From Syntrophorhabdaceae bacterium (GTDB lineage Bacteria; Desulfobacterota; Deferrimicrobia; Deferrimicrobiales; Deferrimicrobiaceae), in NCBI GenBank assembly GCA_009783195.1, contig WRHP01000013.1, forward strand, positions 1 through 39,672: a stretch of DNA of 39,672 nt. Reading direction: 5' to 3'. Positions 3,013 through 21,652 of the stretch are shown here, piece by piece. The notes beneath the pieces were generated by a model. It did not search any database. It was given only the letters and a program-made list of their open reading frames with translations, and was not told the origin of the DNA. A program made the position numbers and the translations under genes. The first letter of the stretch is position 1; each line of letters opens with the position of its first letter.

Positions 3013-3611
3013 TTTTCCCAGCGTTCCTTCTCTTCCACCCGCAAAAACATTGGATCTTCCGAATCATTAAAGAACGCTTTGCGAATATTCCTGAATCCGG
3101 CGTCGGCAAGTTCCGCCTGCATCGAAGCAAAATCCCACATCCACCTGTGCCGGGTATTTCCTAACCATTCCGCCAGAAATTCGCCCAGTTTCTTCCCTCT
3201 TCTCCATTGTCCCAACCCCGTTCCCTTCATAAATTCACAGGCCGAGACGGCGGAGTAATCATCCATGTAGCGCACAGCGTAATATCTCAAATCAGGAAGG
3301 ACGAATCGAAATCTGCCCTCCTCGGCCAACAAAGCATGGGTATTCCTCAAGGCTATTTTTAAATCTTCATGGGAGAAATGCTCCAGCACATGACTACAAT
3401 AGACACCTTTACAACTGTTGGGATTAACCGGCAGGCCCAGCAATATATCTCCATACCGAACATTTGGCGGAAACGGCTTGGGATTTCGCTTTATAAACCT
3501 GCCGATGCCCGGAATCTTTTCCAGGCGTAATGTCGGCGAGGCGTCGAAATTGAGCCATTCTTCGGGTGTACACCAACCGCAACCATATTGAACGTAAAGA
3601 CCTGTGTTCAT
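2985..3611 (-). CDS. Class I SAM-dependent methyltransferase-like protein
   Basis: MNTGLYVQYGCGWCTPEEWLNFDASPTLRLEKIPG...GDILLGLPVNPNSCKGVYCSHVLEHFSHEDLKIALRNTHALL. The track start at 3647 adds 12 residues that match the tail of a GT9 remnant, so the ATG at 3611 is preferred. Confidence 0.82.
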   Translation of the reverse strand: MNTGLYVQYGCGWCTPEEWLNFDASPTLRLEKIPGIGRFIKRNPKPFPPNVRYGDILLGLPVNPNSCKGVYCSHVLEHFSHEDLKIALRNTHALLAEEGRFRFVLPDLRYYAVRYMDDYSAVSACEFMKGTGLGQWRRGKKLGEFLAEWLGNTRHRWMWDFASMQAELADAGFRNIRKAFFNDSEDPMFLRVEEKERWENCLGFECGI

Positions 3612-3621
3612 ATTATTCGCG

Positions 3622-3959
3622 CTACCCAATGCTCCCGCTTTTCGCACGCCACATCAAACATCTTCTATACGGTTATGGAAGCGACACACTTTTTCATTTT
3701 CAAGACATTTCCAAGTCAATACCCGCGGTAACCGGTTCGACAATAAATAACGCGACGGCCCGAACTGAAAGGAAACCTGCATGGGTAAGGCCGGACCTGC
3801 AGACAACGGCCTCCATCAGCACCGCTTTGCCACTAACGTAAAAATTGCGTTGCTTCGCATCCAGAAACACCCGTCCGCGCGATCGAATCATGCGCGTAAA
3901 CGCGACAATCATGTCGCCCGGCTGCCAAAGCGATAAATGAGGACTTTACTGATACTCAC
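3622..3959 (-). pseudogene. Internally deleted, frameshifted remnant of a GT9 gene (paralog of 4758..5810)
   Basis: N-terminal part (VSISKVLIYRFGS / GDMIVAFTRMI...FYVSGKAVLMEAVVCRSGLTHAGF) aligns with MSIRKVLIYHLGSLGDTVVALPCIHLI...NFPVSGKEASMESVIGGSGLVHGYF. The 3' DNA (tggaaatgtcttgaaaatgaaaaa...gcgaaaagcgggagcattgggtag) aligns with the 3' end of the intact gene. About 0.7 kb is missing from the middle. Confidence 0.87.
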
Positions 3960-4689
3960 TTTTTTCGGCAACAACGAGAAAATTCTGGCTGAAGATAACC
4001 CCGCTATTTATATCTCCTGTCTCCACTGCAATGTAAAAACGCAGGATAGAGCGTATTACCTTCCAAAGCACAAACCGGATTGCGCTTTTTACACCGTGAG
4101 GAACCGGCGCGTCCTCGAAACAGCGGATATTGGAGAAACCGGAGGAAAGTAGCAGCTGGCTTATGGAATTGCGGGTGAAAGCCAGTTCATGGGTCAGGTC
4201 AAAATATCGTGATCGCCCGCAAAAAGGCGATCCCCCGTTCGGCATGTTAATGATCCAACGCCCACCGGGTTTCACCACGCGATAAATCTGGTCGACAAAC
4301 CCCAATAACTCCTCTCGGGTAAAATGTTCGACCACATCAATAGTTATCACGATATCCACGGATTCCGAACGCTGCTCCGGCAAAAAAACCATAAGATCGG
4401 CTTCCTCTACACCCTCGATTCCAAGCTTTTTCGCCGAGGCAATCTGTTCCGACGAGCCGTCCACACCGCGAATATTTTGATACCCGGCAAGACGGGCGAA
4501 ATAAATCAATGCGCCATGGCCGCAACCCAGGTCAAGAATCGCCGCGTTGCGATCGGCAAGAAAATGGCGTCGTATCAGCCGCTTCATCCAAGGCGCCCTC
4601 GGTTTTAAACCGCTTGTATCGGCAGGCACAAAATAACAGTCGCGCGAATTCACATAATGACGGTATATACGGTTCCGGTATTCAGTCAC
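3946..4689 (-). CDS. SAM-dependent methyltransferase (copy B, paralog of 5807..6541)
   Basis: ILDLGCGHGALIYFARLAGYQNIRGVDGSSEQIASAKKLGIEGVEEADL. Homology with copy A starts at VTEYRNR, so the GTG at about 4689 is preferred to the track start at 4740. Confidence 0.9.
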   Translation of the reverse strand: MTEYRNRIYRHYVNSRDCYFVPADTSGLKPRAPWMKRLIRRHFLADRNAAILDLGCGHGALIYFARLAGYQNIRGVDGSSEQIASAKKLGIEGVEEADLMVFLPEQRSESVDIVITIDVVEHFTREELLGFVDQIYRVVKPGGRWIINMPNGGSPFCGRSRYFDLTHELAFTRNSISQLLLSSGFSNIRCFEDAPVPHGVKSAIRFVLWKVIRSILRFYIAVETGDINSGVIFSQNFLVVAEKSEYQ

Positions 4690-4708
4690 TATACAAACCC
4701 CTTTTCGT

Positions 4709-4744
4709 CTGTCCCAACCCCGTTCTTTCCATGAATCCACTGGC
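4709..4744 (-). pseudogene. Short relic of a second copy of the 2985..3611 methyltransferase
   Basis: 28 of 36 positions match 3207..3242 by eye, including an identical 16-mer (tgtcccaaccccgttc), at the syntenic position expected from the module duplication. Confidence 0.55.
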
Positions 4745-4757
4745 TAAAGCAACAGGG

Positions 4758-5810
4758 CTACCCGTGGTCCAGCTTTTCGCGCACCGCATCAAACACCTCT
4801 TCAACGGTTATAGAGGCGATGCATTTTTTTTCATACTCAAGACATTTCACCAGCATGCACCCAAAGCAATCAGTCCGATGATAGATAACGCTGTGGTCAA
4901 AACCAAAAGGAAACCATACGCCAGGCTCAATCCGCGCACTGAAAACCGCAACACACGGAACTCCGCATGCGGCCGCAAGGTGCATCGGCCCACTGTCGTG
5001 GCCAACAAAAAGCATCGATTTTTCGAGTACACAAGCGCTGACTCTTGGAGGGATTAGCCCGCAAAGGTTTTGCTTTGGCCCTTTCCATTTCGCGGCAACG
5101 GATTCGCTCTTTCTTCTTTCACCCTCCGAACCGATCATCACGAGCCCCAGGCCGGGGAACCGATCAGACACTCTGCTCAGCAAATCAGACCAGTTACCTT
5201 CTCCCCAATCGTTAACATCTACTTTTGTCCCAACACTTGCCACGATGAATCGAGCCGCCCCTTCCGGCATAAATCCATCCGCCGTCTTTCTTTCTGCTTC
5301 ATTTAGCCGTAAATCCCAGCTTTCCGGTTTATCCACGAATGCATCACCCAGTTCCCGAATACACCGCGCCAGCCGATTTGCCTCGGATTCAAATCGGTCG
5401 TCCTCATCAAGTACCTTGTATTCTCGCAATTTGGCCGAATACGGTATTCCAACCATTTTTCGAATTCCGCAACCGGCGAAAAACAACGCATCGCGGTAAA
5501 CGGGAATTTTTCCTCTTGGCCTCGTCAGATATACAAGCTGCTCGGGAGCCCATCGGCGAATTTCCCGCCCCAAAATCCAAAGCTTCTTTGGGCTACGAGT
5601 TCCAAGCGGATACTTGAAATACCCATGAACAAGACCAGACCCGCCGATAACAGATTCCATCGATGCCTCTTTGCCGCTGACAGGAAAATTAGTCAAAACA
5701 CGGCGCTCCGCATCCGGGAATGCTCTTGCAATCAAGTGTATGCATGGAAGCGCCACAACCGTGTCGCCCAGGCTGCCCAGGTGATAAATGAGGACTTTAC
5801 GAATGCTCAC
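4758..5810 (-). CDS. Family 9 glycosyltransferase (heptosyltransferase-like)
   Basis: KVLIYHLGSLGDTVVALPCIHLIARAFPDAERRVLTN N-terminus and LFVGHDSGPMHLAAACGVPCVAVF motif of GT9 enzymes. Confidence 0.92.
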   Translation of the reverse strand: MSIRKVLIYHLGSLGDTVVALPCIHLIARAFPDAERRVLTNFPVSGKEASMESVIGGSGLVHGYFKYPLGTRSPKKLWILGREIRRWAPEQLVYLTRPRGKIPVYRDALFFAGCGIRKMVGIPYSAKLREYKVLDEDDRFESEANRLARCIRELGDAFVDKPESWDLRLNEAERKTADGFMPEGAARFIVASVGTKVDVNDWGEGNWSDLLSRVSDRFPGLGLVMIGSEGERRKSESVAAKWKGPKQNLCGLIPPRVSACVLEKSMLFVGHDSGPMHLAAACGVPCVAVFSARIEPGVWFPFGFDHSVIYHRTDCFGCMLVKCLEYEKKCIASITVEEVFDAVREKLDHG

Positions 5811-6541
5811 TCTTTTTCAGCAACAACGAGAAAATTCTGGGTAAAGATGCCCCCGTTACCTGCATCCCCAGTCTCCGCCGCAATGTAAAGACGCAGGACA
5901 GATCGGATTGCCTTCCAAAGCCCCCATCTTGCCGCACTCTTTACGCCGTGAGGAATCGGCGCATCCTCAAAGCAGCGGACATTGAAAAACCCGGAGGAAA
6001 GCAGCAATTGGTGGATTGACTTACGGGTGAAAACCAATTCGTGGGTCAGGTCTCCGTATCGCACACATCCGAAGAAAGGCGATTCCCCGTTTACTGTATG
6101 AATGATCCATCGCCCGTTACGTTTTAATACGCGACAGACATGGTCAACAAAACCCAACAACTCATCTTTTGTAAAATGTTCTATCACATCAAAAGCTATC
6201 ACCAGATCCACCGATTCCGCCTGCTGCTTCGACAGGAAAACCGACAGGTCAGCTTCCTCAACTCCTTCGATTCCAAGCCTTTTTGCCGCGGCAACCTGTT
6301 CCGGAGATCCATCCACGCCGCGTATATTTTTATACCCGGCAAGACGAGCAAAGTGGATCAAGGCGCCGTGGCCACAGCCAAGATCCAGGATAGAAGCGTT
6401 GCGATCGGCAGGAAAATGATTTCGGATCAACTGTTTTAGGTAAGGCGCCCTTGGCTTGAAACCGCTTGTACCAGAAGGAGCCAGGGGCTCACCTCGCGCG
6501 CTCACATAGTAACGGTAACTACGATTTCTATATTCGGACAT
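5807..6541 (-). CDS. SAM-dependent methyltransferase (copy A)
   Basis: ILDLGCGHGALIHFARLAGYKNIRGVDGSPEQVAAAKRLGIEGVEEADL; overlaps the start of the GT9 gene. Confidence 0.92.
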   Translation of the reverse strand: MSEYRNRSYRYYVSARGEPLAPSGTSGFKPRAPYLKQLIRNHFPADRNASILDLGCGHGALIHFARLAGYKNIRGVDGSPEQVAAAKRLGIEGVEEADLSVFLSKQQAESVDLVIAFDVIEHFTKDELLGFVDHVCRVLKRNGRWIIHTVNGESPFFGCVRYGDLTHELVFTRKSIHQLLLSSGFFNVRCFEDAPIPHGVKSAARWGLWKAIRSVLRLYIAAETGDAGNGGIFTQNFLVVAEKE

Positions 6542-7752
6542 TACGCAAGAGCGCCTTTTGCCCGGATGTTCTTATTTCGCCCCACTGCCAGACATGCGGC
6601 CACAATATCGTCCGCGCAGGATTTTATGCTGTATTTCGAAACCAACTCCAGGCTGCGTCGCCCGAATTCCCGGCGCAGGCTGGCGTCGCGAACCAACCGG
6701 CCCAACGCATTTTTCAACGCATCGACATCCTGATAATCCACCACGAATCCATTCCATCCCTCTTTCACCAAATCAGCGGCACAACCAACCTTGTCCGTAA
6801 CCACAATCGGAAGAGAAAAATTCATGGCTTCGTTCACAACAAGCCCCCATGTCTCCATATATGACGAAGGAAGCACAAAAATATCCGCTACCGAATAAGC
6901 GCGAGGTATCTCCGTCTGATTGAGAAATCCGGGTAGGATGACATCGGGAATTTGCCTACGACGGATCAGATCTTCCATGGAAGACCTCAAAGGCCCATTT
7001 CCAACCATAAGAAGCATGCACGGCATCTCTGCTCTCAAACACGCAAAAGCCTCGATCAGCAACAATGGCTGCTTTTTCTCTATGAATTTTCCGGCAAACA
7101 TGATCACCGGGACATCATCAGGTATTCCAAATTCCAAGCGAAGTTGTTTTCTTTTTGATGTCAGTGCAATCGCCTTCCCGCGAAAGAAATCGTTATCTAC
7201 ACAGTATCGGGCAGGAAACAATCTGTCAGGCCGCATCCCATAATGCTTGAAATATCGACGATTGTTTTCTCCTATGTATAACCCGTAGGTACAGCAAAAC
7301 AACCCCCGAAGCATAACCGTTTTCAACAGCCTCTTATACCAGGGTCTTCCGTTTAAAAGTGTTTGTTCCTCGCGAATCAAAATTTTCGTTCCGCTGAAAC
7401 ACGCAGTAGCAACAGCAAGCCAAGTATTAAGGTGTGCATACCCATGAACCCATACAACGTCAAATTGCCCAAATACTGTCTCCCTAAGAATGTCCCAATT
7501 CGGCATTTGAAAAAAATTAATTTCCAATTTTTTGTTTATTGCGCTTGGACACCATCGAACGTCATACCCATCCAGTAACGAAATATTCCACTCAATCTCC
7601 TGGCCAAACTCCTTATCTTTATGCCGCATCAGCGACTCATCAGAGAAATAAAATACTGTTTGATGAATTTCCTGACGGCCGGCAAGCTCTTTATACAATG
7701 GAGAAAGATATTGAATCGGATGAGACACCAGATGAGCCACGCGAATTATCAT
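6541..7752 (-). CDS. Family 4 glycosyltransferase
   Basis: VPVIMFAGKFIEKKQPLLLIEAFACLRAEMP; FVLPSSYMETWGLVVNEAMNFSLPIVVTDKVGCAADLV. Confidence 0.93.
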   Translation of the reverse strand: MIIRVAHLVSHPIQYLSPLYKELAGRQEIHQTVFYFSDESLMRHKDKEFGQEIEWNISLLDGYDVRWCPSAINKKLEINFFQMPNWDILRETVFGQFDVVWVHGYAHLNTWLAVATACFSGTKILIREEQTLLNGRPWYKRLLKTVMLRGLFCCTYGLYIGENNRRYFKHYGMRPDRLFPARYCVDNDFFRGKAIALTSKRKQLRLEFGIPDDVPVIMFAGKFIEKKQPLLLIEAFACLRAEMPCMLLMVGNGPLRSSMEDLIRRRQIPDVILPGFLNQTEIPRAYSVADIFVLPSSYMETWGLVVNEAMNFSLPIVVTDKVGCAADLVKEGWNGFVVDYQDVDALKNALGRLVRDASLRREFGRRSLELVSKYSIKSCADDIVAACLAVGRNKNIRAKGALA

Positions 7753-7805
7753 AAAAATAAAACCTTATTTTTTATTAATTTTAAACCATTAAATGATAAT
7801 ACACG

Positions 7806-9278
7806 CTATTTAAATATATGCACTTTATTTATTCCAATAAAAATAGAAATAATCATCATAACAATGATTTCCTGCGGCAACACTCTAAGAATAACAGCCA
7901 TATTTCCCTGGAATCCTCCTTCCACAAACGTATTATTTATTGATGCCAAAATAAATATAGCCCAAACATTGTTTTGAATATCAAGGCCTGTTGCTTTTTT
8001 TATAATTAAAAACATTATTATTGAAATAAACAGCGGAAATACGAAAACACCAACCCAACCAAAGGAGACATATCCAACTCCAACAAGCGGCGAGGACAAG
8101 AAATTTCCGTATCTATACTCACCTGTATAATAATAATGTAACCAATCTCCCTCGCTGTAATCCACCGGCTTGTCAGGTACAAAAAAACGAGGTAAAGCAA
8201 ATTTAATAGCACGACCAATTACTTCAAATTTAACATATCCAATACTATTAGCACCATCCATAAATAAATCTGTATTATTTACCAGACTAACTCTTTCTAA
8301 AAGATTGTTCGGCATTTCATAATAATTTAAATAAAATTTCCCTGTTAACGCCTCTGCATCTAACATATATAAATATTTCGAATAACTATCATTAGCCTCA
8401 TCCAATCTTGTAAAAACTTGCATTGTAAAAAAAATTCGCTCCTTCCAACCTAAATCTTCCCGAAAATTCCGAACAACTAAAAATACTGGCGTGATGATTA
8501 TCAGCAATAAAATAGCTATAATTGCGCTTGTAATTTGTTTTTTTGTGATTTTTCCGCGAAAAGCTATATCAGTAAGAATCAATGCCAGAAATACTTCAAC
8601 TATCATCGCTCTAGAATTTTGTATGAAGGAAAAAATGATCTCAACCGCTAGCACCACTACCACCCAAACATCAAATATTCTACGCTCATCGCTCCGAGTA
8701 ATTGAACTTGCGGCCGCGGAAATCAATGACAAATGCAGAAATGGCATAAAAGCGCTAGAAATATTCCACACAGGAATTGAAGAGCTTACCCGTAAGGCAC
8801 ATTCCAAGTTAGAAACAAACCCTATTAGAAATGAGTAATACGAAATACGGCGTAATAAACCATGATGGGTTATCGATCGAAGCAATGGCAAACCCACATT
8901 CATGCGATTTACAGAAATAAACCCGATAAAATAAGCAGCTACGCCGACAGCCACAGCCAAAAAAGCACATAAGGGGTTTTCCAGGTTGGTATCAAGCGCC
9001 TGCCCGAAAAACAGTTTTGCGAATAACGAAACTCCCACATATCTGAAAGCAACAAGAAAAACAAGAACTGCCCCGATATTTACCACTCCAAAGTTAGCAA
9101 CCGGAACAACTCCCATCATTATGGCGGTAATCGCTAGCAGTGGAATCAATGAATCAGAACCAATGGCAACATGCAAAAATCCACAGATAATACATAAAAA
9201 AATCAGCCACCAGAATATATTCTTCCTTGTCGCCTCTTGTGCCAAAAAAGAAAGCTTTGCAATTTGCGGATTTATCAC
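7806..9278 (-). CDS. O-antigen / repeat-unit polymerase-like integral membrane protein (Wzy-like)
   Basis: 490 aa with many hydrophobic segments, extracytoplasmic loop with WLHYYYTGEYRYGNFLSSPLVGVGYVSFGWVGVFVFPLF, in a Wzx/Wzz cluster; strongly AT-rich. Confidence 0.78.
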   Translation of the reverse strand: MINPQIAKLSFLAQEATRKNIFWWLIFLCIICGFLHVAIGSDSLIPLLAITAIMMGVVPVANFGVVNIGAVLVFLVAFRYVGVSLFAKLFFGQALDTNLENPLCAFLAVAVGVAAYFIGFISVNRMNVGLPLLRSITHHGLLRRISYYSFLIGFVSNLECALRVSSSIPVWNISSAFMPFLHLSLISAAASSITRSDERRIFDVWVVVVLAVEIIFSFIQNSRAMIVEVFLALILTDIAFRGKITKKQITSAIIAILLLIIITPVFLVVRNFREDLGWKERIFFTMQVFTRLDEANDSYSKYLYMLDAEALTGKFYLNYYEMPNNLLERVSLVNNTDLFMDGANSIGYVKFEVIGRAIKFALPRFFVPDKPVDYSEGDWLHYYYTGEYRYGNFLSSPLVGVGYVSFGWVGVFVFPLFISIIMFLIIKKATGLDIQNNVWAIFILASINNTFVEGGFQGNMAVILRVLPQEIIVMMIISIFIGINKVHIFK

Positions 9279-9332
9279 GATTTAAATATCACTCTTAAAC
9301 GCATACCTATTTATTAACACCAGACCCTTGTC

Positions 9333-10376
9333 TCATATATTACCAAGTATCTGTTTAACAACTATTTCATTCAAAAACTTATTGTTTTGGCAACGTCGCT
9401 GACCGGCCTTTGTAATACTCAAGCGAACTTCCTTATTTTTAAGCAACCAGAGTATTTTCTCCGCGCATTCTTCCGCCGTGCTCCAAAAAACAGCTTCCTT
9501 GTTATCCTTGTACATTGCCTCGTGTTCTGAGGTTCGCTCAGCACAAAATAGACTACCTATATAAGGAATTTCTACAGATCGAGTGGTATGCAAATCTCTG
9601 TTTCTTTTAGAAAGAAGCCCAAGACATATTTTAGAGCATTGAATAGCTCTCACATAATCGACACCCATTTGAGGTTCTTGCCATACAGACCTCAGGATCG
9701 GCCATTCTTTGCTCTTTTTCCAGCGTTCTCCATAGATAGTCAACGGGACTCCCAGTTCCAGCAGACGGGCAAGGAATGGTCCCCGCTCCGGCATCCAGGT
9801 TCCGATAAAGGAAACTTCGCTTGCAAAACGTGATCTATCCTCCAACGTCAGCTTCAAGGGCGCGTGCGCAACTTCATCAGCAGAAAAATACACGCGTAAC
9901 ACCTTTCGGGCGCCAGCCTCATACGCCTCCGCAATATTCTCTACCCGCACCACAACAACCAGGTCATAAATCGGCAAAGCTTTTCGATAAACAGAAAAAC
10001 GCTTTTTCGTCTTATCTTTAGACGGAAAAGGGTCATCGACATTGTAGTTGATTACAATCGGGATTGAATCTTTGAGGCGCTTCACCATATCCGGGCTGAT
10101 CAACACTCCCTGGTCTACCCAAGCTATATCGTATCGCTGCTTTTGAATGGCGCGGTTCAAAAGCGGGCGAATACAGCGCTCCACCGCCCATGCGCCGCCT
10201 TCATAAATGAATTTATTTAATATCCTGTTCGCCTGTTGATGTTTTGGGAAAAAAGCCCCTGGTTCGGCTATGTTAACTATGTCGACTTCATGTCCGATTC
10301 GCCTTAAAGCATTGGCGCGGTGCGCGGAAGTTCCCTCGTTTGCTCCAAGATAAAGAATACGTTTACAGATCGACAT
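9333..10376 (-). CDS. CgeB-like glycosyltransferase family protein
   Basis: KRILYLGANEGTSAHRANALRRIGHEVDIV; SFIGTWMPERGPFLARLLELGVPLTIYGERWKKS; RSVEIPYIGSLFCAERTSEHEAMY. Confidence 0.83.
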   Translation of the reverse strand: MSICKRILYLGANEGTSAHRANALRRIGHEVDIVNIAEPGAFFPKHQQANRILNKFIYEGGAWAVERCIRPLLNRAIQKQRYDIAWVDQGVLISPDMVKRLKDSIPIVINYNVDDPFPSKDKTKKRFSVYRKALPIYDLVVVVRVENIAEAYEAGARKVLRVYFSADEVAHAPLKLTLEDRSRFASEVSFIGTWMPERGPFLARLLELGVPLTIYGERWKKSKEWPILRSVWQEPQMGVDYVRAIQCSKICLGLLSKRNRDLHTTRSVEIPYIGSLFCAERTSEHEAMYKDNKEAVFWSTAEECAEKILWLLKNKEVRLSITKAGQRRCQNNKFLNEIVVKQILGNI

Positions 10377-11538
10377 GCGATTCCGTCATCCCGGCAAGTA
10401 TTTCCGATATTCGAGCGCCGTAATCATCCCATCCGCCCATCCCGGCAACTCGTTTAAGCGCATTTTCGCTTATCCGGTTTCTTTGCTCCGGATCATCCGC
10501 CATCAATTGCAACCGCTCCGTTATGGCACACGGATCTCTTGGCCTCACGATAAACCCTTCCACTCCGTCAGTGAAAAGATCCGACGCCCCCGTGTTCGTC
10601 GTCCCGATGACCGGACATCCGCAGGCCATCGCTTGTGCCTGAACTAATGCCAGACCTTCCTCCACACTCGGTAGCACCATGACATGGGAACGGCTCATCA
10701 CGTTTTTAAGTTCCTTTTGCGGCATGGCACCGAGAATCTCTACCTTGCCAGCAGGAGGATATCTCTTTAAATACCGCTCCATTTCGGGCTGCATCGGCCC
10801 GACAATGCGCAGACATTTCCGCGAATGACGTAAGCCCTCGAAAGCCTTTAGAAGATATGGAACACCTTTCTGGAAGCTTACTTGTCCCACAAACAGCACA
10901 TCAAAACCGCCCTTTTCCGGATCGCAAGTTTTTTCGAAACAGCGAAGGTCAACCCCATATGGCGCTTTCCGCAGTTTCAACGGAGAAACTCCCATTTCAA
11001 CAAAGGAATTTCTGGCAAACTCCGAAGGCACTGTTATGATATCGGCCGCTTCATACTCGGCCTCTTCCTTTGCGATAAAGCGAGGATCTATTCCGGGAAA
11101 TCTTTCACCCCATTGGGAAAACTCCTCTTTTAAAATCGCTTCCTGGTAGCGGATGTGGGAAGACCCCCGATCGCAAACTGTCCTGATCCCCAGCCGGGAC
11201 GCGACGCGAAAACTCCTAAGTCCGGAACCGGATAAAACAAACAGAACATCGCATTCAGGAAGCCTGCGGGAAACGTAAGTATCCAGCGCCTCGTGAGCCG
11301 CCCATGCCAATTCCCTTTGCAGAGGTTCTTTCAGCATCCCCCACCTGGACAACGCCATGTATGGCGTTGTAAACCATGGAAAGGTAACAACCTTTTCCGA
11401 TGGAAGATCCTCGCCGCGCAATTTCCAGCCAGGATAGCCGGCAAAAAACTTCACCAGCATGTCGCGCTTTGACAACTGGCGGGCAAGATCAAAATGATGA
11501 AACCGCGCGGAACAGACAACCGTTACCCGTACGCTCAA
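10363..11538 (-). CDS. Family 4 glycosyltransferase
   Basis: VDVLFVGQVSFQKGVPYLLKAFEGLRHSRK-type region; VLPSVEEGLALVQAQAMACGCPVIGTTNTGASDLFTDGVEGFIV. Start set at the TTG before SVRVTVVCSARFHHFDLA; the track start is 11607. Confidence 0.9.
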   Translation of the reverse strand: MSVRVTVVCSARFHHFDLARQLSKRDMLVKFFAGYPGWKLRGEDLPSEKVVTFPWFTTPYMALSRWGMLKEPLQRELAWAAHEALDTYVSRRLPECDVLFVLSGSGLRSFRVASRLGIRTVCDRGSSHIRYQEAILKEEFSQWGERFPGIDPRFIAKEEAEYEAADIITVPSEFARNSFVEMGVSPLKLRKAPYGVDLRCFEKTCDPEKGGFDVLFVGQVSFQKGVPYLLKAFEGLRHSRKCLRIVGPMQPEMERYLKRYPPAGKVEILGAMPQKELKNVMSRSHVMVLPSVEEGLALVQAQAMACGCPVIGTTNTGASDLFTDGVEGFIVRPRDPCAITERLQLMADDPEQRNRISENALKRVAGMGGWDDYGARISEILAGMTESHVDL

Positions 11539-11687
11539 GAAACACTCTCTCTTGGGGCCATCACTGACATGCGAGTCACATCCGCGCCCTGCGGGCGCGT
11601 AAATCAAACTGCGTCAAACCAAAAAATAACGGATAACAGGCATATTTTTCGCCAACAGTATTGTTAATCGCGTTCAACAACACCAAA

Positions 11688-12707
11688 TTATTCTTCCCGT
11701 GGTATGGTTTTAACAACATCCCGAAATAAATCCAGATATCTATTCGCAATGGCTTTACCTGTGTATTTTTTAAAATGAGCTTTAGAATCCAACAGGCAAC
11801 GGGATATTATTTGTTGGTCGAATAATGTTTTTCGTATGCAAACCGCCAACGCTTCCGCATCCCCATTCGGGAAAGTCAACCCGCCGGGACCAATTGCTTC
11901 CTTAAGCCCTCCTCCTTCCGAGCCCACCACAATACAGCCACATGCCATTCCCTCCAGCGCAACCACTCCAAAAGGCTCATTCCATACGGATGGAACGACC
12001 AAGACCTTATGTGAATTAAGAAGCTCGGTAAGTTCATACCCCATTTTCACGCCAACAAATTTCACTTGAGCGGACAGACCCAATTCATCTGTAAGGATTC
12101 GCCAAGCCTGTTCTTCGGGCCCTTTCCCGACGACCGTCAAATTTGGCTGTAACCCGTCCTTTCGTAAAAGAACCAGCGCATGCAAAAGAACAGGAAGTCC
12201 TTTTTCCGGAACAAACCGGCCAAGAAAAACCAGATCTTTTTCTCTTCGCAACCCTGAAGTTTCCCGAAAAACATCTTCATCATAAGGGCTATTTATGACA
12301 ACAGATTGTTGCTGGAAATCTGCGGCTATTACGCTACTTACTGATATTTGTGTTGCCCATCGAAGAACAAATCTTTTTAACCGGCCATTTAACCTGTCTT
12401 TCGCAATCCATTGATGATGCGTAACAACCCATGGACGATGGATAAAAAGCATCGGCCAGGCGTTCCGAAGGCTGATATGGTTATGAAAAACAAGGTCTGC
12501 CCACGCGGTTAATTTCAAATGCTTGAAAACAGAAGGCCGCCTAATAACTTCATAAGGGAAAGTGTCGTTTATTTGATTTGATGGCGTATTGGTTACTAAT
12601 TTAACCACATGCCCGGACCTGACAAATCCTTTGGCAAGCACTGCCGCCACTGTTTCAGTACCACCAACACTCGGAAAAAAATGGTATGAAGACAACAGTA
12701 TTCTCAT
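11688..12707 (-). CDS. Family 4 glycosyltransferase
   Basis: MRILLSSYHFFPSVGGTETVAAVLAKGFVRSGHVV; LVFLGRFVPEKGLPVLLHAL; VVPSVWNEPFGVVALEGMACGCIVVGSEGGGLKEAIG. Internal ATG preferred to the track start at 12755. Confidence 0.93.
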   Translation of the reverse strand: MRILLSSYHFFPSVGGTETVAAVLAKGFVRSGHVVKLVTNTPSNQINDTFPYEVIRRPSVFKHLKLTAWADLVFHNHISLRNAWPMLFIHRPWVVTHHQWIAKDRLNGRLKRFVLRWATQISVSSVIAADFQQQSVVINSPYDEDVFRETSGLRREKDLVFLGRFVPEKGLPVLLHALVLLRKDGLQPNLTVVGKGPEEQAWRILTDELGLSAQVKFVGVKMGYELTELLNSHKVLVVPSVWNEPFGVVALEGMACGCIVVGSEGGGLKEAIGPGGLTFPNGDAEALAVCIRKTLFDQQIISRCLLDSKAHFKKYTGKAIANRYLDLFRDVVKTIPREE

Positions 12708-12779
12708 GGGGTTATATCTTTTAACCAGCCAAGTTGTTTTTTTGGCAGACGGCATAGTTCAAATTACAACCCTCAAATC

Positions 12780-14180
12780 CTATGCCTTTTTCATATCCCT
12801 ATTCGCTCTGATCAAAAACCACGGCGGCTTCGCAATTCCAGCTACCCAGGATGAAAAAGATTCTCCGGCAAGCGAAAGCATTTTCGGCAACGCATATGCC
12901 GCCATTATCGATTCACTAAGGAAAACCGCCACTCCCGCGCCTGTAATACCCAGCTTATTCAACAACAGGATGGCGAAAACAAAGGTTAGTCCGCCGTACA
13001 CCACGGAGTAGACCATCGCTATTTTTACGTGGCGATTCGTAGCATAAGCCGCCATCAGTGCGACGTACCAAATGGAATTGACTACCACGGCAAGCAGAAG
13101 GAACAAATAGAGTGGCCAATACATCGCTACTTTTCCATGGGTCCACAAACCAAGAAGCCATTCTCCCGAGACCGCCAGCAGCAGACAAAAAACCGCGCCC
13201 AACCATAGCGACGCCTGACATGAACGGTTAAACAAGCGGCGGAAATCCTTCTTGCGGTCTCCCCCATAAGCAATCGCCATCTCCGGCTCGATTATGCGGC
13301 TGATAATAGCGGCAGGCTGCATGGCAAACCGGGAAAGTGTGCGCAGAACGCTTACGGCAACAACCGACGAGGGACCAAGCAACAACCCAACGACCAACAC
13401 TATCCCCTGAATATTGAGCGCATTGCCCAATGGAAACGCAAGAGAAGCAAAAGCGGGAGCCGAAAGGTGTTTTATTTCCGCCACCGTAGCCGCATGCCAC
13501 CCATACCGCAACCATGGCGTAGCGCGATACAACCCAAGGCGCATCAGAGCCAAACCCGCAAGCCGCCCTCCCAAGTATCCGCAAGCGGCCGATACCGGTC
13601 CGCCGCCCCAAAAAACCGCTGCGCTTAAACCGCCAAACTCCATCAGTTGTACCGTAGCAGATAACACCATGCCTTCCGCATAGCGTCCATCGCACCAAAA
13701 ACCGCCGTTTACAAGCCCCGTCTGGAAGCCCGTCAGCACATAGGCGACAAGAATAATGGCCGAAAGCTTCGCGGTGTTGGACCCCATTTCCTTAAATCCA
13801 AGCCAATCTGAAAGCGGCACAACCGGCACAACAAGGAATGCCAGCATGCCAACGCAAAGCGATACCAAGAGAAGCAAAACCCAAGTGCTCTGGAAGACAG
13901 ACAATGCGCCGGCGCGATCTCCCGCGCCGCTACGAATGCTCATCTCCCGGCAGGCGGCGCCGGCAAACCCGCCGTCGCACATACTCAAATACATCGGGAT
14001 CGCGGCCAGCATGAGCCACTCCCCATAAAGCTGGGCGCCCCAGCAACTCAATAGAAGAGGCACCTCCACAAGACGGATCAGGATATGGACCGCCTGCGAG
14101 TACCCTTGCGCCCCAAGTCCCTTCGTAAGGCGGGATCGAAGGTCGGATTTTTTCGGGATGGTCATTCCAAAAGAAAACAA
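12780..14180 (-). CDS. Polysaccharide flippase (Wzx / MOP superfamily)
   Basis: 466 aa multi-helix membrane protein with SRLTKGLGAQGYSQAVHILIRLVEVPLLLSCWGAQLYGEWLML N-terminus, in an EPS cluster. Confidence 0.85.
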   Translation of the reverse strand: MFSFGMTIPKKSDLRSRLTKGLGAQGYSQAVHILIRLVEVPLLLSCWGAQLYGEWLMLAAIPMYLSMCDGGFAGAACREMSIRSGAGDRAGALSVFQSTWVLLLLVSLCVGMLAFLVVPVVPLSDWLGFKEMGSNTAKLSAIILVAYVLTGFQTGLVNGGFWCDGRYAEGMVLSATVQLMEFGGLSAAVFWGGGPVSAACGYLGGRLAGLALMRLGLYRATPWLRYGWHAATVAEIKHLSAPAFASLAFPLGNALNIQGIVLVVGLLLGPSSVVAVSVLRTLSRFAMQPAAIISRIIEPEMAIAYGGDRKKDFRRLFNRSCQASLWLGAVFCLLLAVSGEWLLGLWTHGKVAMYWPLYLFLLLAVVVNSIWYVALMAAYATNRHVKIAMVYSVVYGGLTFVFAILLLNKLGITGAGVAVFLSESIMAAYALPKMLSLAGESFSSWVAGIAKPPWFLIRANRDMKKA

Positions 14181-14204
14181 AGGAGAAGAAACGCGGAGGC
14201 GGCT

Positions 14205-15113
14205 CTACCTCAAGCCGCCGACATTTTTTGAACCGCCATTCTCGCGGATGCAGAAAAAGACCCAACTGCCGATCAACGCGAGGAACATCGATACGCCGGC
14301 GTTGTAAAGCCTGCGTGGCCGGATTTTCCTGTCCGGGGCGCGCGGCGAATCTATCACCCTGAAGCCGAACTGCTCCCGGTTCCGGGCCATCATCTCCTGC
14401 TCCACCTCATGGCCAAGAAGTGAATAGAGACGATCTCGCGTAAGAGCATCCATCGTCTTTCCAATCTGCTCCTCGATGAATTTTTTATTTTTCACCGCGC
14501 GGTTCAATGCTTCTTCCTGGAGGCGGCTTCTACCTTCTTCGAGATAATGCTTCACAATCTCGGCGGAACCTGCCGGAGAAGGAGAATCAAAAGAAATGGT
14601 CACTGTGCCCGCTCTACGGTTGACCAAAACCCGCAGCCGCTCTTTCGCGGCTCGAATGGCATCCCATTCGCCAGGCACATCCGATCCGTTCTTGCCGGAG
14701 AGGCGCTCTATCCATGACCGGCGGATCTTTCCGGACACGGGGTCGTATCGGTCTTTATACAGGATCAACCAAAGATTATGCTTGCCGAACACGCGTACAG
14801 TCAGATCGTCACTTCTAAAAAGCGCCTCAAGATCCTCCACTCGAGTTGCTCCCCCAACATTGATTCCGAAGCTTGCCAGCATTCCCAAGCCCGGATTTTC
14901 CCTTCTCTCCTGCGGCGGAGGGGCGATCACCGCGGAGGCCTGATAAACATTTTGCTTCATCAACAAAAAAATAAACGTCACGACCCCGGCCGCCAGACAG
15001 ATCAGCGTGATCTTGCTCCATGACTGAAACAGAGTACGGATGTGCCTGCCAAGGTCTATAAAATCATCCGGCCGGCCGGCCGCTGAAAACCGCTCTTCCA
15101 CCCCGGCCTCCAT
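14205..15113 (-). CDS. Chain-length determinant protein (Wzz family)
   Basis: N-terminal TM after a short cytoplasmic segment, QNVYQASAVIAPPPQERRENPGLGMLASFGI, and a C-terminal DSPRAPDRKIRPRRLYNAGVSMFLALIGSWVFF TM. Confidence 0.9.
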   Translation of the reverse strand: MEAGVEERFSAAGRPDDFIDLGRHIRTLFQSWSKITLICLAAGVVTFIFLLMKQNVYQASAVIAPPPQERRENPGLGMLASFGINVGGATRVEDLEALFRSDDLTVRVFGKHNLWLILYKDRYDPVSGKIRRSWIERLSGKNGSDVPGEWDAIRAAKERLRVLVNRRAGTVTISFDSPSPAGSAEIVKHYLEEGRSRLQEEALNRAVKNKKFIEEQIGKTMDALTRDRLYSLLGHEVEQEMMARNREQFGFRVIDSPRAPDRKIRPRRLYNAGVSMFLALIGSWVFFCIRENGGSKNVGGLR

Positions 15114-18100
15114 CAGAACGCTATCACCAGCACGCCCACCGACACGGCGATCTGGTACAAGATCTGTACGAGATCTTTTACATCCTTCATTGCGCGAGCC
15201 TCGGCCAGTTTCTGCGGCACGACAATGGAATCGCCCGGTTCAATCTTGGAAGACATGAACCCGCCCGTGAGGAAATTGCCGCCGGCGCTGCTTCGGCTTA
15301 CCACAGAACCGTTGGCCTTCAACACAAAGATGTTATCGCGATCCGCTTTATCCGCGGGGCCGCCTACTTTTTTCAGATAATGACTGACTGAGTCGTTTGC
15401 GGGATCATAAACAACACCGGTCGGGTTATATACCCGGCCAACGACGTTTACCACATTCATCTTCGTCGGCACAAACAAGCGGTCGCCATCTTCAAGGAAA
15501 ATATCATCGCTGCTCCCCACCATGGCGTCCGGATCGCTCAGCTTGATGATGACGCGCCCCTGCGCTTTCACCTTCTTCAACTGGGCAAGAAGCCCCCGCC
15601 TTGCCTCCAGAAGTTGCCGGTTCGATTCGACATCCTCACGACTAAGAGCAGCCCCCACCTCCTGCGCTTTTTCCGCAACCGCGATCTCGAGCTCCTCGAT
15701 CATCTTGTCTATCGCTTCCTGCTGCGCCTCCTGCGTGGAAACGCGCGTAAAGACGGCGGCTTTTATGTAGGCTCCGTTTGTGTACCCACCCGCTCTCCTG
15801 ATAACAGAACTAAGCCGCTCGCCCTTCTGCGCCGCGTACGCGCCCGGAAAGCGGAACTCCCCCGCAAGGGTAATAAGGATTTTTTCTTCCCATTCGGGAA
15901 TCTGCCGGACATATAGAAAATCATCCGCTACAAGCGGAATATCAGCCTCCTCTTCTCCCGCAACAGCGCGATCCGGATAGACGATGATCGTCCGCGTGCT
16001 GACAAAATCTCCCTCTTCGCTTATTTCCCGCCGAATCAGCTCGGCTTCTTTCTGGTATGAACTTTCCAGGAAACCGCCTGATTTGAACAGCAGATCCGAA
16101 AGCTTCATGTCCCGCGTCAAGATGAAATCGCCCGGCTGCCTCACCTCCCCTGCGACGGAAACAGTTCTGCGCAGGGACGCCTCATGAATCGAATGAATCC
16201 GGATACGGTCCTCGTCATGCAAAAGCTTGTTCTCTTGCGGATCTCCGGCCATCGCCTTGCCCAGGTGGAAGTAGATCGTCTGGTAATTGCGACTCTCGTC
16301 AACACGCACAATCTCGGCGCGCTCGAGGCTGGCAAGCCGGGTCAACCCGCCCGCCATGTTCACGAGATCGGCTACCCGCGTTCCCTCATGAATCTCGAAA
16401 ACGAGTGCGTTGCGCTCGAAATGAGATTCCGCGCGCCGGGCGTCCACAGCGCGGGTGTCCGCGCCGCGTGTTTCCGCAAACCTAAGCTCTGCTTCCCTGA
16501 TCTCTGATGCCTTGAAATCACGGCGACGGATCCTCTGGTCGCGCAGGATGGCCTCCCGGGATTCCGCCAGAGCATCGGCCTTCGCCTTTTCTCCCACGCC
16601 ATCGGCGCTTTTGACCATGTCGTCTCTACGGATATGGTCTTCCTCCCGCAGCGATTCCCGGAACCGTTCCTCCTTCGATTTTTCCGGCTCAAAAGAAAAC
16701 CGCGTACCGTCGTCGGCCACGGGCTTCTTCAGCAGCTCCACCCGCGCCAACCGTATTTCGCCGGAAATGGAGGCGCGCGGAAAATCCTCGAAATCTTTGC
16801 GATGGAAAACCCTCAGCGTATCTCGCGGCATAAGCGTTACGTCCGCGCCACGCTTGCGCTCAAGAACAATCTCCCGCAAGTTCACCGGAACGATTTCTTT
16901 GCGCAGGTCCGGCGGAACAAGCCGGACGATCAGGGCATATTCATAATGCGTCTCCGGCAGAAACTCGCTTTCGTTGTTAAAAAGCGACCCCACCGTCATG
17001 CCATCCTTGAACTCATACCTGCCCGGACGCCGCACATTCCCTTCAAGCGCCACAGCTTTCTCATCGGCCAGAATGATCGGGAAAACACGAACCAGGTCAC
17101 CGTCCGCAAGCGCAAAACCGTCCTGATTCTTTTCCAACTCGTCGGCGTCGGCATCGAGTACCACGCGAGCGGTATTTTCTTCGAGCCGCTCCACTTGCAC
17201 GCGCCGTTTATAGGCCGCGGGAGTAAATCCGCCCGCAAGATGAACCAGGTCCAGAAGGTTCTCGCCGCCCTTCAACTCGTAAATGGCGGGCCTGCGCACC
17301 TCTCCCGCAACAGCGGCAAGCCTGCCCACCACGGGAACAAAAACCACATCGCCCTGGATCAGGCGGATATCCGAACGGCTATCTCCTTTGAGGAGAAAAT
17401 CGTACAGGTCTATCTCCCCAACAACAGAACTGCCTCTCAATATGCTTATGCGACGCAGCGACCCGATATCCTTTAACCGGCCGGCGGAAGACAGCGCTTG
17501 TATCGCCGTGTTCAGGGAGCTGATGTTATACCACCCTGGGTTGCGCACCTCGCCCATCACGGACACGCGAATCCCCTTCATCTGTCCCATGCCGACATCG
17601 GAGTTGACTTCAGCTATGGTGGATACTTTCGACTTCAGCAACTTCTTTACTTCCTCAAACGTCTTGCCGGCCACATAGATGGAGCCAAATTTTGGGAAAA
17701 ATATCTTCCCGTCGCGGTCAACCACCATTCGCTGGGTTCCCTCGACACGCCCCCACATGCGTACGATGAGCTCATCGCCTGGGCCCACGACATAGTTCGA
17801 GGAAACCGGCAGGTTTTCCGACTGAGGCGTAGCCGCGCCAAACGGCACGAACAGATCGTGGCCGAAATGGACAAGCGATTCCCGTTCTCTGGCAGTAAGA
17901 CGATTGCTGAAAAGTCCGCCGACGTAAGTGGATTTACGCCAATCGTAAGGAGACTCCGCCGTACCCCGCCCCACCCCGGCGATCGTATTGGCTTCGGGCC
18001 TTCCGGCGGCCGGTTCTCTCATAACGGCATCGCCTTGCGCCTCGCCCGCCCTTTCTTTCAAAACATTATCCAGCGCCTGTCGATAGCTTTCAGGGTCGGA

Positions 18101-18316
18101 ACCTATATATTGTCTGGCCGCGGCCGCCTGTTCGGGCGTAATCCCATACTGAAGAAGCTGCGTGTTTCTCCCGCCAAACGGCTCCCCCGCAAAAGCAAAA
18201 GACTTGACCGCAAAAAGGAAAAGGAAAAAGAGCGCCGTGGTCTGCCGCAAGACAGGCCCAAACCGCGAAACAGTTATATCCCTCTTGTTTATCAAGAACT
18301 TTTCCTTTTTAAGCAA
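15113..18316 (-). CDS. Large multi-SLBB polysaccharide export protein (OPX/Wza-related)
   Basis: Signal-like N-terminus; VVGPGDELIVRMWGRVEGTQRMVVDRDGKIFFPKFGSIYVAGKTFEEV export domain; repeated GEVRxPGxYxL...xGGF SLBB motifs. Start uncertain: TTG at 18316 or TTG near 18295. Confidence 0.92.
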   Translation of the reverse strand: MLKKEKFLINKRDITVSRFGPVLRQTTALFFLFLFAVKSFAFAGEPFGGRNTQLLQYGITPEQAAAARQYIGSDPESYRQALDNVLKERAGEAQGDAVMREPAAGRPEANTIAGVGRGTAESPYDWRKSTYVGGLFSNRLTARERESLVHFGHDLFVPFGAATPQSENLPVSSNYVVGPGDELIVRMWGRVEGTQRMVVDRDGKIFFPKFGSIYVAGKTFEEVKKLLKSKVSTIAEVNSDVGMGQMKGIRVSVMGEVRNPGWYNISSLNTAIQALSSAGRLKDIGSLRRISILRGSSVVGEIDLYDFLLKGDSRSDIRLIQGDVVFVPVVGRLAAVAGEVRRPAIYELKGGENLLDLVHLAGGFTPAAYKRRVQVERLEENTARVVLDADADELEKNQDGFALADGDLVRVFPIILADEKAVALEGNVRRPGRYEFKDGMTVGSLFNNESEFLPETHYEYALIVRLVPPDLRKEIVPVNLREIVLERKRGADVTLMPRDTLRVFHRKDFEDFPRASISGEIRLARVELLKKPVADDGTRFSFEPEKSKEERFRESLREEDHIRRDDMVKSADGVGEKAKADALAESREAILRDQRIRRRDFKASEIREAELRFAETRGADTRAVDARRAESHFERNALVFEIHEGTRVADLVNMAGGLTRLASLERAEIVRVDESRNYQTIYFHLGKAMAGDPQENKLLHDEDRIRIHSIHEASLRRTVSVAGEVRQPGDFILTRDMKLSDLLFKSGGFLESSYQKEAELIRREISEEGDFVSTRTIIVYPDRAVAGEEEADIPLVADDFLYVRQIPEWEEKILITLAGEFRFPGAYAAQKGERLSSVIRRAGGYTNGAYIKAAVFTRVSTQEAQQEAIDKMIEELEIAVAEKAQEVGAALSREDVESNRQLLEARRGLLAQLKKVKAQGRVIIKLSDPDAMVGSSDDIFLEDGDRLFVPTKMNVVNVVGRVYNPTGVVYDPANDSVSHYLKKVGGPADKADRDNIFVLKANGSVVSRSSAGGNFLTGGFMSSKIEPGDSIVVPQKLAEARAMKDVKDLVQILYQIAVSVGVLVIAF

Positions 18317-18332
18317 AATTTGGGAGCGAAAC

Positions 18333-18345
18333 GCAAGCTACCGCC
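18333..18345 (-). promoter_or_regulatory. ops-like element (RfaH recruitment site)
   Basis: Minus strand reads GGCGGTAGCTTGC, containing the full GGCGGTAG ops core; lies just upstream of the SLBB gene and downstream of an RfaH-like gene. Confidence 0.75.
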
Positions 18346-18552
18346 CATGCAAACAGCGAAAAACTTATCCCTTTCAGACAACCCCCGCATTAGAACGCGA
18401 TAATATCACCTAAAACACCCTCTCCTGGCAATCATCATTTCACTATATCAATGTGTGTAAGCCCGGCGCGATGCTCGGCTATCCTTACGACGAACACCGC
18501 AAGCAATGCGGTTTTTGCGTGGGAAATGTCCGGTTTAATAGGCTCAACTCCT

Positions 18553-18925
18553 ATCTGCATGGGCGGCTTCGTTTGGGCAAAAGATCTCCCCCGCAGGCAC
18601 TACTTTCTGTTTTTATGCGTAGCCAGAGACGGTTTCGCCAAAAAACAGGGCAGCGTAGGCATGTACATGAAAACCGCTTCCATACCATCGGACAAATCGC
18701 GGGGAGGTTCTCCGGAGGGGTATGCCTTCTGTTTCGCCGCGTAGCCAAGGACGGCGAAGCAAGAAACAGGGATGACGAGAAAGCGTACCCAAAGGAGAAG
18801 CCTCCCTGCGATGGCCGTGCCGCGCGGCTTTGGCATACGCAGCATCCAGCTTGGCGTTACCATAGGCGGCTATCAAGCGTACCCGGAGGAGAGTGTAGCG
18901 AGCGAAAGAAGCCGCCTCTGCTAAT
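18553..18925. repeat. MITE-like palindromic repeat, compound copy with two core hairpins
   Basis: Outer inverted ends: ctgcatgggcggcttcgtttgggcaaaagatctccc versus reverse complement of ggagagtgtagcgagcgaaagaagccgcctctg. Two cores CTGTTT...GTAGCCA...AACAG near 18607 and 18729. Confidence 0.7.
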
Positions 18926-18943
18926 CAAGAGTGCGGCTGGTTT

Positions 18944-19459
18944 CTATTCGAGAGACAGTTTTTCAATGGTGAGACGATAGCTCGATACGGCGTCAAGAAG
19001 GAGTATGACGCGCTCGCGGTCGGGCAATTCTTCGAGAAAAATTGCTTCCAGTCCGGCAAAGGGGCCTTCTCCGATCCTGACCTTTTGGCCGGGAGACAAA
19101 TCAACTCTGCGCGGCTCAAGCTTGATAAATCCTTCGCCATCCATCCGCTCCCGGATGGCGGTTACGATTTCCTCTCCGACTTCCTGTGGTTCAAGGCCAA
19201 AACAGATGACGCGGGCAACACCGTGGGTATATTTGATGGTCTTGAGCTCGTCGCCGCGAAACCGTACGAACAGATAGGTGGGAAAAAGGGGCCGAACCTC
19301 TAAAGCGCCACGGTTGCGACGAGACTTCTTATGAAATCTCGGATAAAGAACTTCATATCCGGCGCCGTTTAGCCGGTTGTAAACCCGGTTTTCGTTCAAA
19401 GCTTTAGTTTTGACCAGGTACCATTTGGGATCCAAGAACAGCCTCCGCCGCACAACCAC
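18944..19459 (-). CDS. rfaH: RfaH/NusG-family specialised transcription antiterminator
   Basis: WYLVKTKALNENRVYNRLNGAGYEVLYPRF...RPLFPTYLFVRFRGDELKTIKYTHGVARVICFG...GEGPFAGLEAIFLEELPDRERVILLLDAVSSYRLTIEKLSLE; located upstream of the EPS operon. Confidence 0.9.
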   Translation of the reverse strand: MVVRRRLFLDPKWYLVKTKALNENRVYNRLNGAGYEVLYPRFHKKSRRNRGALEVRPLFPTYLFVRFRGDELKTIKYTHGVARVICFGLEPQEVGEEIVTAIRERMDGEGFIKLEPRRVDLSPGQKVRIGEGPFAGLEAIFLEELPDRERVILLLDAVSSYRLTIEKLSLE

Positions 19460-19517: not shown

Positions 19518-20474
19518 TTAACATCCCGGTTTTGCCGATTCCGCCTCCAGGAGCTCACGGAAATAGGCAATGGTTCGGATCAACCCCTCCCGCAACAAAA
19601 TGGCCGGTTCCCAACCCAGCTTTTCTTTGGCAAAAGAGATGTCCGGCTTACGCCTGACAGGATCGTCTTGAGGCAGCGGATGAAAAGCGAACTCTGACCT
19701 GGAGCCGACAAGCTCCCTGACCATCGCTGCCAATTCCATAATAGTAAATTCGCCCGGATTTCCGAGATTGACCGGCCCGGCCAGCTCGTCCTGGTCCATC
19801 ATCCTGATCATCCCGGTAACCAGATCGTCAACGTAACAGAAAGAACGTGTCTGGTCCCCTTTCCCGTATATGGGGATCGGCTCGTCTTTAAGCGCCCGAA
19901 CGATAAAATTCGACACGACGCGTCCGTCGTTTGGGTGCATGCGGGGGCCGTACGTATTGAAAATACGGATAACCCGAACCTGCAAACCGTGCTGGCGATG
20001 GTAGTCGAAAAAGAGCGTCTCGGCGCACCTTTTCCCTTCGTCGTAGCATGCCCGCAGCCCGATCGGGTTTACGTTTCCCCAGTACGACTCTTTCTGCGGA
20101 TGCTCCACCGGATCACCGTACACCTCGGAGGTTGAAGCCTGCAGAATCCTGCACTTAAGGCGCTTTGCAAGCCCCAGCATATTGATCGCGCCGTGGACGT
20201 TCGTTTTGGTCGTCTGGACCGGATCGAACTGGTAGTGCACGGGGGAGGCCGGACAGGCAAGGTTATAAATCTGGTCCACCTCGACGTATAAAGGCCAGGT
20301 GATGTCGTGCCGCATGAACTCGAAGGACGGATTCTCGTGGAGATGCTTGATATTCTGACGGCGCGAGGTGAAGAAATTGTCAACGCAGAGAACTTCATCT
20401 CCACGCGCAAGCAGCCGCTCGCAGAGATGCGATCCGATAAACCCGGCGCCGCCGGTAACCAGAATCCGTTTCAT
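19518..20474 (-). CDS. uxs: UDP-glucuronate decarboxylase (UDP-xylose synthase), extended SDR
   Basis: [84 protein letters not shown]. Confidence 0.93.
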
Positions 20475-20556
20475 TACGTTTTTCTCCTGACTGTTCGTCT
20501 TCCGCGCTACCGCGGCCGTTTAAGCCTTGCCTCAATTTTTTTAATGGAATCGTTGT

Positions 20557-21600
20557 TTACAAACGGCCTGGATTTTTGCTGTTTGTAAGCTCACAAAAAA
20601 CCTTGCGGCCCTCGCCGGGCGGCTCTATCCCGGCATCCTCCAGATCCGCGTCCATCATGATCCGGACCAGTTGGGAAAAAGATATTTTCGGTTCCCAGTC
20701 AAGGAGCTTTTTGGCTTTAGATGAGTCGGCAATCAGGTTTTCCACCTCTGTTGGCCGATAATACTTCGGATCGATCCTGACATATTCCTGCCAGTCGAGC
20801 CCCGCGTAGCTGAACGCTTCCACAAGAAAATCTTTCACCGAATGGGATTCTCCGGTGCCTACAACAAAATCATCCCCACGGTCGTGCTGAAGCATGAGCC
20901 ACATCGCCTGAACATATTCGTACGCAAACCCCCAGTCGCGTCGGGCATCGAGGTTCCCAAGGAACAGCTCTTTTTGCTTGCCGGCCTTTATGTTCGCGAT
21001 CGCGCGAGTGATCTTCCTGGTCACGAACGTCTCGCCGCGCCGGGGAGATTCGTGGTTAAAGAGTATGCCGTTGGTGACAAACATGTTGTGCGCTTCCCTG
21101 TAGTTCACCGCCATCCAGTAGGAATACACTTTGGCCGCCCCATACGGGGATCTGGGATAAAACGGGGTTTTCTCGTTTTGAGGCGGAGGAGATGCCCCGA
21201 ACATCTCGCTGGAGGAAGCCTGATAGTACCGGGTTTTTACTCCCGTGCTGCGCAACGCCTCCAGGATGCGGGTCGTTCCCAAACCGGTTACATCGCCTGT
21301 ATATTCCGGGATATCGAAAGAAACACGCACATGGCTTTGCGCGCCCAGGTGATAAATTTCGTCCGGCTGGATGTTGTAGATAAGGTTTATCAGTTGCCCG
21401 CCGTCGGACAGATCTCCGTAATGCAAAAACATACGGGCCTCGTCAACGTGCGGATCAACATACATATGGTCCAGGCGGCCGGTATTGAACGTTGAGGCCC
21501 GGCGGACAATCCCGTGGACCTCATATCCTTTCGACAAAAGAAATTCCGCGAGGTACGATCCGTCCTGGCCGGTTATACCGGTAACCAACGCTTTTGGCAT
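20557..21600 (-). CDS. gmd: GDP-mannose 4,6-dehydratase
   Basis: [82 protein letters not shown]. Internal ATG preferred to 21624. Confidence 0.96.
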
Positions 21601-21652
21601 TTTTTTCCGCTCCCTTGCAACCAACCATATGTGATAAACGGTAATTCATGGA

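Follow-up and report, generated by a model that had tools for sequence, protein, structure and literature searches.

A probable self-contained RfaH-ops module at a deltaproteobacterial exopolysaccharide locus

Introduction

RfaH of Escherichia coli is the sole member of its family for which recruitment is known in detail (PMC7593976), and the literature accessible without subscription yielded no report of an ops element in the Desulfobacterota, Geobacter or Myxococcus, or otherwise outside the Gammaproteobacteria. In the 39,672-nucleotide stretch of DNA analysed here (the window), a gene resembling rfaH and an ops-like sequence precede a long run of polysaccharide genes. Does this arrangement represent a genuine RfaH-ops pair governing its own neighbours, a pause site that the protein does not read, or a fortuitous match? 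We addressed this question by examining the locus, the protein, and the corresponding loci of related genomes.

Results

Organization of the locus

Read along the minus strand, the locus consists of gmd, an epimerase gene, the RfaH-like gene, a spacer, ops, the SLBB/Poly_export gene and a polysaccharide run that continues to the window edge (Table 1). The sequence-only reading had located a near-perfect ops tens of bases before an SLBB gene heading a long same-strand run. The element is indeed found at that position and is even exact; it lies 598 bases from the RfaH-like gene and 37 bases from the SLBB start, and same-strand polysaccharide genes extend over about 18 kb from that start to the window edge. 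An alternative SLBB start, TTG 18316, is allowed by the ORF scan, but the start given in Table 1 is preferred because AAGGAAAAG precedes it and because it yields a signal peptide.

Table 1. Features of the RfaH-ops locus (window coordinates).
Feature	Coordinates	Strand	Details
gmd	21624..20557	minus	
NAD-dependent epimerase/dehydratase	20474..19518	minus	
Nucleotide-sugar genes upstream of rfaH	19518..21624	minus	
RfaH-like NusG paralogue	18944..19459	minus	171 aa; start possibly TTG 19435, where orthologues begin
rfaH-ops spacer	18346..18943	minus	598 bp
Extended family motif ATG+ops, ATGGGCGGTAGCTTGC	18333..18348	minus	ATG immediately 5' of ops
ops element, GGCGGTAGCTTGC	18333..18345	minus	12/12 match to GGCGGTAGCNTGC; conserved beside rfaH in relatives
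Putative 18-codon leader ORF, MGGSLRFAPKFCLKRKSS	18292..18348	minus	Opens at the ops ATG
Shine-Dalgarno-like AAGGAAAAG, 5' of the SLBB start	18299..18307	minus	Direct reading
SLBB/Poly_export outer-membrane polysaccharide export gene	15113..18295	minus	Pfam SLBB 1.2e-49, Poly_export 1e-18; start TTG 18295; first gene past ops
Remaining polysaccharide run, putatively ops-controlled	1..15113	minus	Wzz-like, MatE flippase-like, glycosyltransferases, others

The spacer is made of dispersed repeats, and the same genome holds 46 further matches to it. Since rfaH and ops are separated by 50-200 bp in most relatives, these repeats were inserted into the leader of the window locus. Between rfaH and ops, no known RNA element scored above the Rfam gathering score, and a simple scan of the minus strand from rfaH to the SLBB gene detected no intrinsic terminator. 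An imperfect 16-nt inverted repeat (18341..18356 / 18551..18566) was also observed, through which the upstream leader RNA could pair with ATGGGCGG at the start of ops. Such pairing could mask the ops RNA, or the inverted repeat could be a by-product of the spacer repeats.

The exact GGCGGTAGCNTGC sequence occurs once in the window and once in the whole 1,738,394-bp genome (88% complete), and its predicted DNA hairpin is the same as that of E. coli ops. Sites with one mismatch number 32 elsewhere in the genome versus 45 for a reversed control, i.e., there is no excess. With the near-matches at control level, several trans targets in this genome are unlikely.

The RfaH-like protein

Judged by its sequence, the window protein is an RfaH-like specialised NusG paralogue, in agreement with the original assignment of the gene adjoining ops. 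It matches Pfam NusG through its NGN domain (50.9 bits), and its best NCBIfam model is RfaH (TIGR01955, 97.7 bits, under the cut-off of 144.5), followed in order by UpxY (NF033644, 63.4 bits, cut-off 100), NusG and LoaP (NF033641, 29.6 bits, cut-off 125), the UpxY and LoaP cut-offs not being reached either. E. coli RfaH is its top PDB sequence match (1e-10); in the Foldseek ranking, the ops-paused complex of E. coli RfaH takes second place, behind a NusG model. The Rho-binding IFG loop of NusG is gone, positions 145-147 reading A-V-S.

In E. coli RfaH, four side chains touch ops, H20, R23 and R73 among them (PMC5995543). The sequence-only reading had made its case depend on the presence of the residues that read ops, an expectation that stands only in part. 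Alignment to E. coli RfaH indicates that K10, R16 and T72 are retained, as are F56 and F130, whereas H20, R23 and R73 have become R, G and H, respectively, so that K10 alone remains of the contact set K10/H20/R23/R73. Two further substitutions, E48R and I93V, affect residues that, like the retained F130, belong to the autoinhibited alpha-helical CTD arrangement of RfaH. The polymerase-binding F56 is a phenylalanine in the window protein and in all 35 ops-linked rows of the alignment. AlphaFold, given 23 homologues in one run and 55 in another, modelled a beta-barrel-like C-terminal domain (CTD) each time, with a CTD pLDDT of only about 57-76. The replacement of E48 by R together with this beta CTD model makes autoinhibition of the E. 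coli type doubtful, and it is probably absent from the window protein.

rfaH and ops are paired at most family loci

The family sample comprised 24 genomes including the window's own; those with readable record titles are all MAGs. An RfaH orthologue sharing 58–82% identity with the window protein was found in 14 of them, again counting the window's own, and among the other family genomes, those scored with the NusG profile revealed housekeeping NusG alone. Once G002 (contig end) and G008 (Ns) were left out, 12 loci could be scored. Nine of these carry an exact ops on the same strand 50–600 bp past rfaH (G000, G001, G003, G005, G010, G015, G017, G018 and G020), and G007 carries a downstream same-strand ops with one mismatch. 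By comparison with these nine, ten 700-bp downstream segments would be expected to contain about 4e-4 exact same-strand sites by chance, or 1e-3 according to the empirical control density.

The two other scorable loci, G004 and G014, possess rfaH and no ops nearby, and are a natural ops-less contrast inside one genus. In both (L108 and L109, respectively), the rfaH orthologue abuts or overlaps the next polysaccharide gene. Two peculiarities were observed at other family loci. The rfaH frame of G010 (L126) enters other sequence after about residue 135, its CTD being maybe frameshifted or mis-assembled, and in G020 (L040) a pair of genes judged by eye to be VapBC-like toxin-antitoxin genes lies between ops and the EPS genes.

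ops follows rfaH in many families of the phylum

Across the phylum, 395 genomes were covered by a profile search, and 155 of them contain RfaH-like paralogues, a few of the weakest matches being possibly NusG. In the flanks of 81 loci from other families, ops-like sites with at most one mismatch occurred solely on the rfaH strand, nearly all of them downstream. A k-mer count behind the RfaH-like genes, made without assuming any motif, returned GGCGGTAG as the most strand-enriched downstream 8-mer (23/80 loci, none on the opposite strand), with GCGGTAGC next (22 loci, again none). Pooling phylum and family gave 36 linked ops sites versus a single reverse-strand core in 65.9 kb. The eight core bases served to select these 36 sites, and outside that selected core C9 is found in 35/36, T11 in 31/36 and G12 in 34/36. 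The ops sites of the relatives keep G4, G5, A7, G8 and the C3:G8 pair, which E. coli RfaH needs, along with the pause bases T11 G12. In E. coli ops, G4, G5, A7 and G8 are required for RfaH recruitment and T11 G12 is the pause-inducing dinucleotide (PMC5995543). The sequence-only reading had staked its proposal on conservation of the ops core in syntenic loci. Such conservation is clear: the core accompanies rfaH both within the family and in numerous further families of the phylum.

The genes found after ops encode SLBB/Poly_export, Wza, Wzi, Wzz-like and XrtA-type proteins, a sugar transferase, a polysaccharide deacetylase/DUF3473 protein and an asparagine-synthase-type protein. On a quick tree, ops-linked paralogues cluster, the ops label requiring 8 changes compared to 28 for shuffled labels. 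A clade of 70 rows (SH-aLRT 99) contains the window protein, E. coli RfaH and 34 of the 35 ops-linked paralogues, the exact place of the long-branched E. coli RfaH being unsure. Entire subclades of the tree are without an ops site.

Further ops sites in relatives

Additional EPS-linked ops sites were detected in six family genomes (G002, G003, G007, G015, G017 and G020), their targets including Wza-like (G015), Wzz-like (G003, G017) and Wzi-like (G002) genes. Such sites before other polysaccharide operons suggest that the RfaH-like factor of these relatives probably works in trans as well.

A second class of ops comprises seven sites (L004, L009, L028, L087, L090, L105 and L026) that fall inside a Poly_export gene, at its 5′ end; this gene follows a sigma-54 response regulator. 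There, ops is embedded in codons 5-9 (W-A-V-A-C) of the Poly_export signal peptide, and TGG GCG GTA GCC TGC is 100% identical in the seven genomes, synonymous positions included, whereas the flanking codons vary. Three genomes, G011, G012 and G021, keep an ops of this class although housekeeping NusG alone was found in them; the missing RfaH may reflect a binning loss, or another factor may use the site.

An ATG precedes ops in the family

Of the 22 linked family sites, 20 have an ATG immediately before ops, as compared to none of 15 unlinked chance sites. These classes were assigned after inspection, and the linked set includes a site, G017 C148, for which no target gene was identified. In the window, this ATG has no good Shine-Dalgarno sequence ahead and opens a putative leader ORF, the TGA of which overlaps the TTG that starts the SLBB gene (TTGA). 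The leader stop likewise overlaps the next start in G007, G017, G015 (second site), G037, G074 and G109. In G010 and G002, the ATG before ops is the sole plausible start of a Wzi-like gene. The sequence-only reading had raised the possibility that ops, lying so close to the start codon, is coupled to translation initiation. This notion has gained support, given that two relatives have no usable start other than the codon immediately before ops and that, in several others, a short ORF opening at ops runs up to the first gene and terminates on its start.

These observations raise the possibility that the family ATG+ops is a composite element, in which the ATG would be a true start to which RfaH delivers the ribosome, opening either a leader peptide or the first gene. 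Such an element would refine a genuine RfaH-ops pairing rather than replace it, and agrees with the presence of the ATG at linked rather than unlinked sites, with the overlapping leader stops and with the lack of a Shine-Dalgarno sequence before most of these ATGs. Nevertheless, we consider it rather doubtful. The seven sites within Poly_export genes retain the ATG even though it is not in frame with the gene, AAT or AAC takes its place in other families, and the leaders of G001, G003 and G005 stop short of the next start. The out-of-frame ATG and the AAT/AAC triplets weaken the view of the ATG as a mere codon and speak for a DNA motif of the form A-[A/T]-N. We take this motif to be an upstream extension of the ops element which, in some genomes, doubles as a start codon. 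The E. coli ops sites of waaQ and rfbB have no ATG directly ahead.

Discussion

Proposed mechanism and alternatives

Taken together, these data make it very probable that the deltaproteobacterial exopolysaccharide locus in the window has a self-contained RfaH-ops module, in which the cis-encoded RfaH, loaded at ops, drives the EPS operon. The sequences, their conservation, the strand-specific linkage, the target genes and the protein homology are observed; pausing, binding, NusG exclusion and ribosome recruitment would proceed by analogy with E. coli RfaH. Expression of gmd, the epimerase gene and rfaH, which make up the upstream part, would yield the RfaH-like elongation factor. RNA polymerase would then pause at the downstream ops, which has the consensus pause bases GG...TG, and the non-template strand would expose a GGTA loop closed by C3:G8. 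Diverse RNA polymerases pause at ops-like sequences (PMC7593976). The NGN domain of the factor is predicted to bind both this loop and the polymerase clamp. Having lost its own Rho-binding loop, the factor would exclude NusG/Rho and remain bound across the ~18 kb operon, and its KOW domain would probably aid ribosome loading at the first gene, which starts at or just past ops. The cis layout would have the factor produced just upstream of its own loading site. The cis-encoded antitermination circuit originally suggested is supported, with antitermination itself inferred; its strictly cis character has to be qualified, since relatives with ops before other operons point to probable action in trans as well.

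According to a less likely scenario, to which we assign a small probability, the cis paralogue loads co-translationally and blind to sequence, as proposed for beta-type RfaH, and ops is merely a strong pause, not read by the protein, that buys time for factor loading or ribosome entry. The beta CTD in both models, the loss of E48 and the three altered ops-contact residues are consistent with this scenario, as are the adjoining rfaH and ops-less operons of G004 and G014 and the reported action of beta-type, cis-located RfaH proteins without ops (PMC13015549). However, the relatives keep G4, G5, T6, A7 and G8, bases that are read by E. coli RfaH and unneeded for pausing (PMC5995543), which argues against a pure pause since the latter would allow them to drift. 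Moreover, the identical sites located far from rfaH in other operons need a factor acting at a distance. Lastly, a chance ops match near an unrelated NusG paralogue, which the prior of about 0.005 for one 12-base match per window and the control-level near-matches of the genome might have left credible, is refuted by conservation and strand-specific linkage in relatives and retains virtually no probability.

Implications

Although the RfaH-ops switch has been dissected solely in bacteria of the E. coli type, its distribution appears far wider, with consequences for the presumed evolution of the RfaH family. Ops contacts have been placed late in RfaH evolution (PMC7593976), and cis-located beta-type RfaH proteins have been described as ops-independent (PMC13015549, a 2026 preprint). 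The conserved ops beside cis-encoded, E48-less RfaH-like genes in numerous families of another phylum challenges both the late origin of ops reading and the ops-independence of cis-encoded beta-type RfaH. We tentatively raise the idea that ops reading is an old, phylum-wide trait of cis-encoded RfaH-like factors instead of a late enterobacterial invention for action in trans, and that in the family ops merged with a start codon, thereby loading both factor and ribosome. The relatives offer dozens of natural factor–site pairs with which to probe how ops is read without H20, R23 and R73. In addition, the rfaH-ops pairing provides a simple rule to locate regulated polysaccharide operons of uncultured bacteria.

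Comparison with known systems

The closest counterpart is the E. coli RfaH-ops system of the waa, rfb, kps, hly and tra operons. Both comprise an NGN-KOW NusG paralogue that has lost the Rho loop, identical ops bases including the GGTA loop and the pause TG, and a long surface-polysaccharide operon with ops in the leader right before the first gene. They differ in that the window rfaH adjoins its target whereas E. coli rfaH is unlinked, that the window protein is changed at H20, R23, R73 and E48 and has a CTD modelled as a beta barrel, and that the window genome has a single exact ops. In addition, ops is preceded in the window and its relatives by ATG or AAT/AAC as opposed to CTGG/AGG at E. 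coli waaQ and rfbB, and the first gene in the window carries a Shine-Dalgarno-like site.

By analogy, the window factor would resemble Bacteroides UpxY in being encoded within, and acting on, its own capsule/EPS operon, although the UpxY model scores below the RfaH model on the window protein; PMC7593976 mentions no ops in connection with UpxY and gives as unknown how cis-encoded factors of this kind are recruited. Monomorphic beta-type RfaH proteins (PMC13015549) share with it a cis position beside a polysaccharide operon, the absence of some ops-contact residues and a predicted beta CTD. They are ops-independent according to that study, whereas the window gene has a perfect ops alongside. 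LoaP and TaA are also specialised NusG paralogues dedicated to long operons, but their targets are antibiotic operons, and the LoaP model falls well below its cut-off on the window protein.
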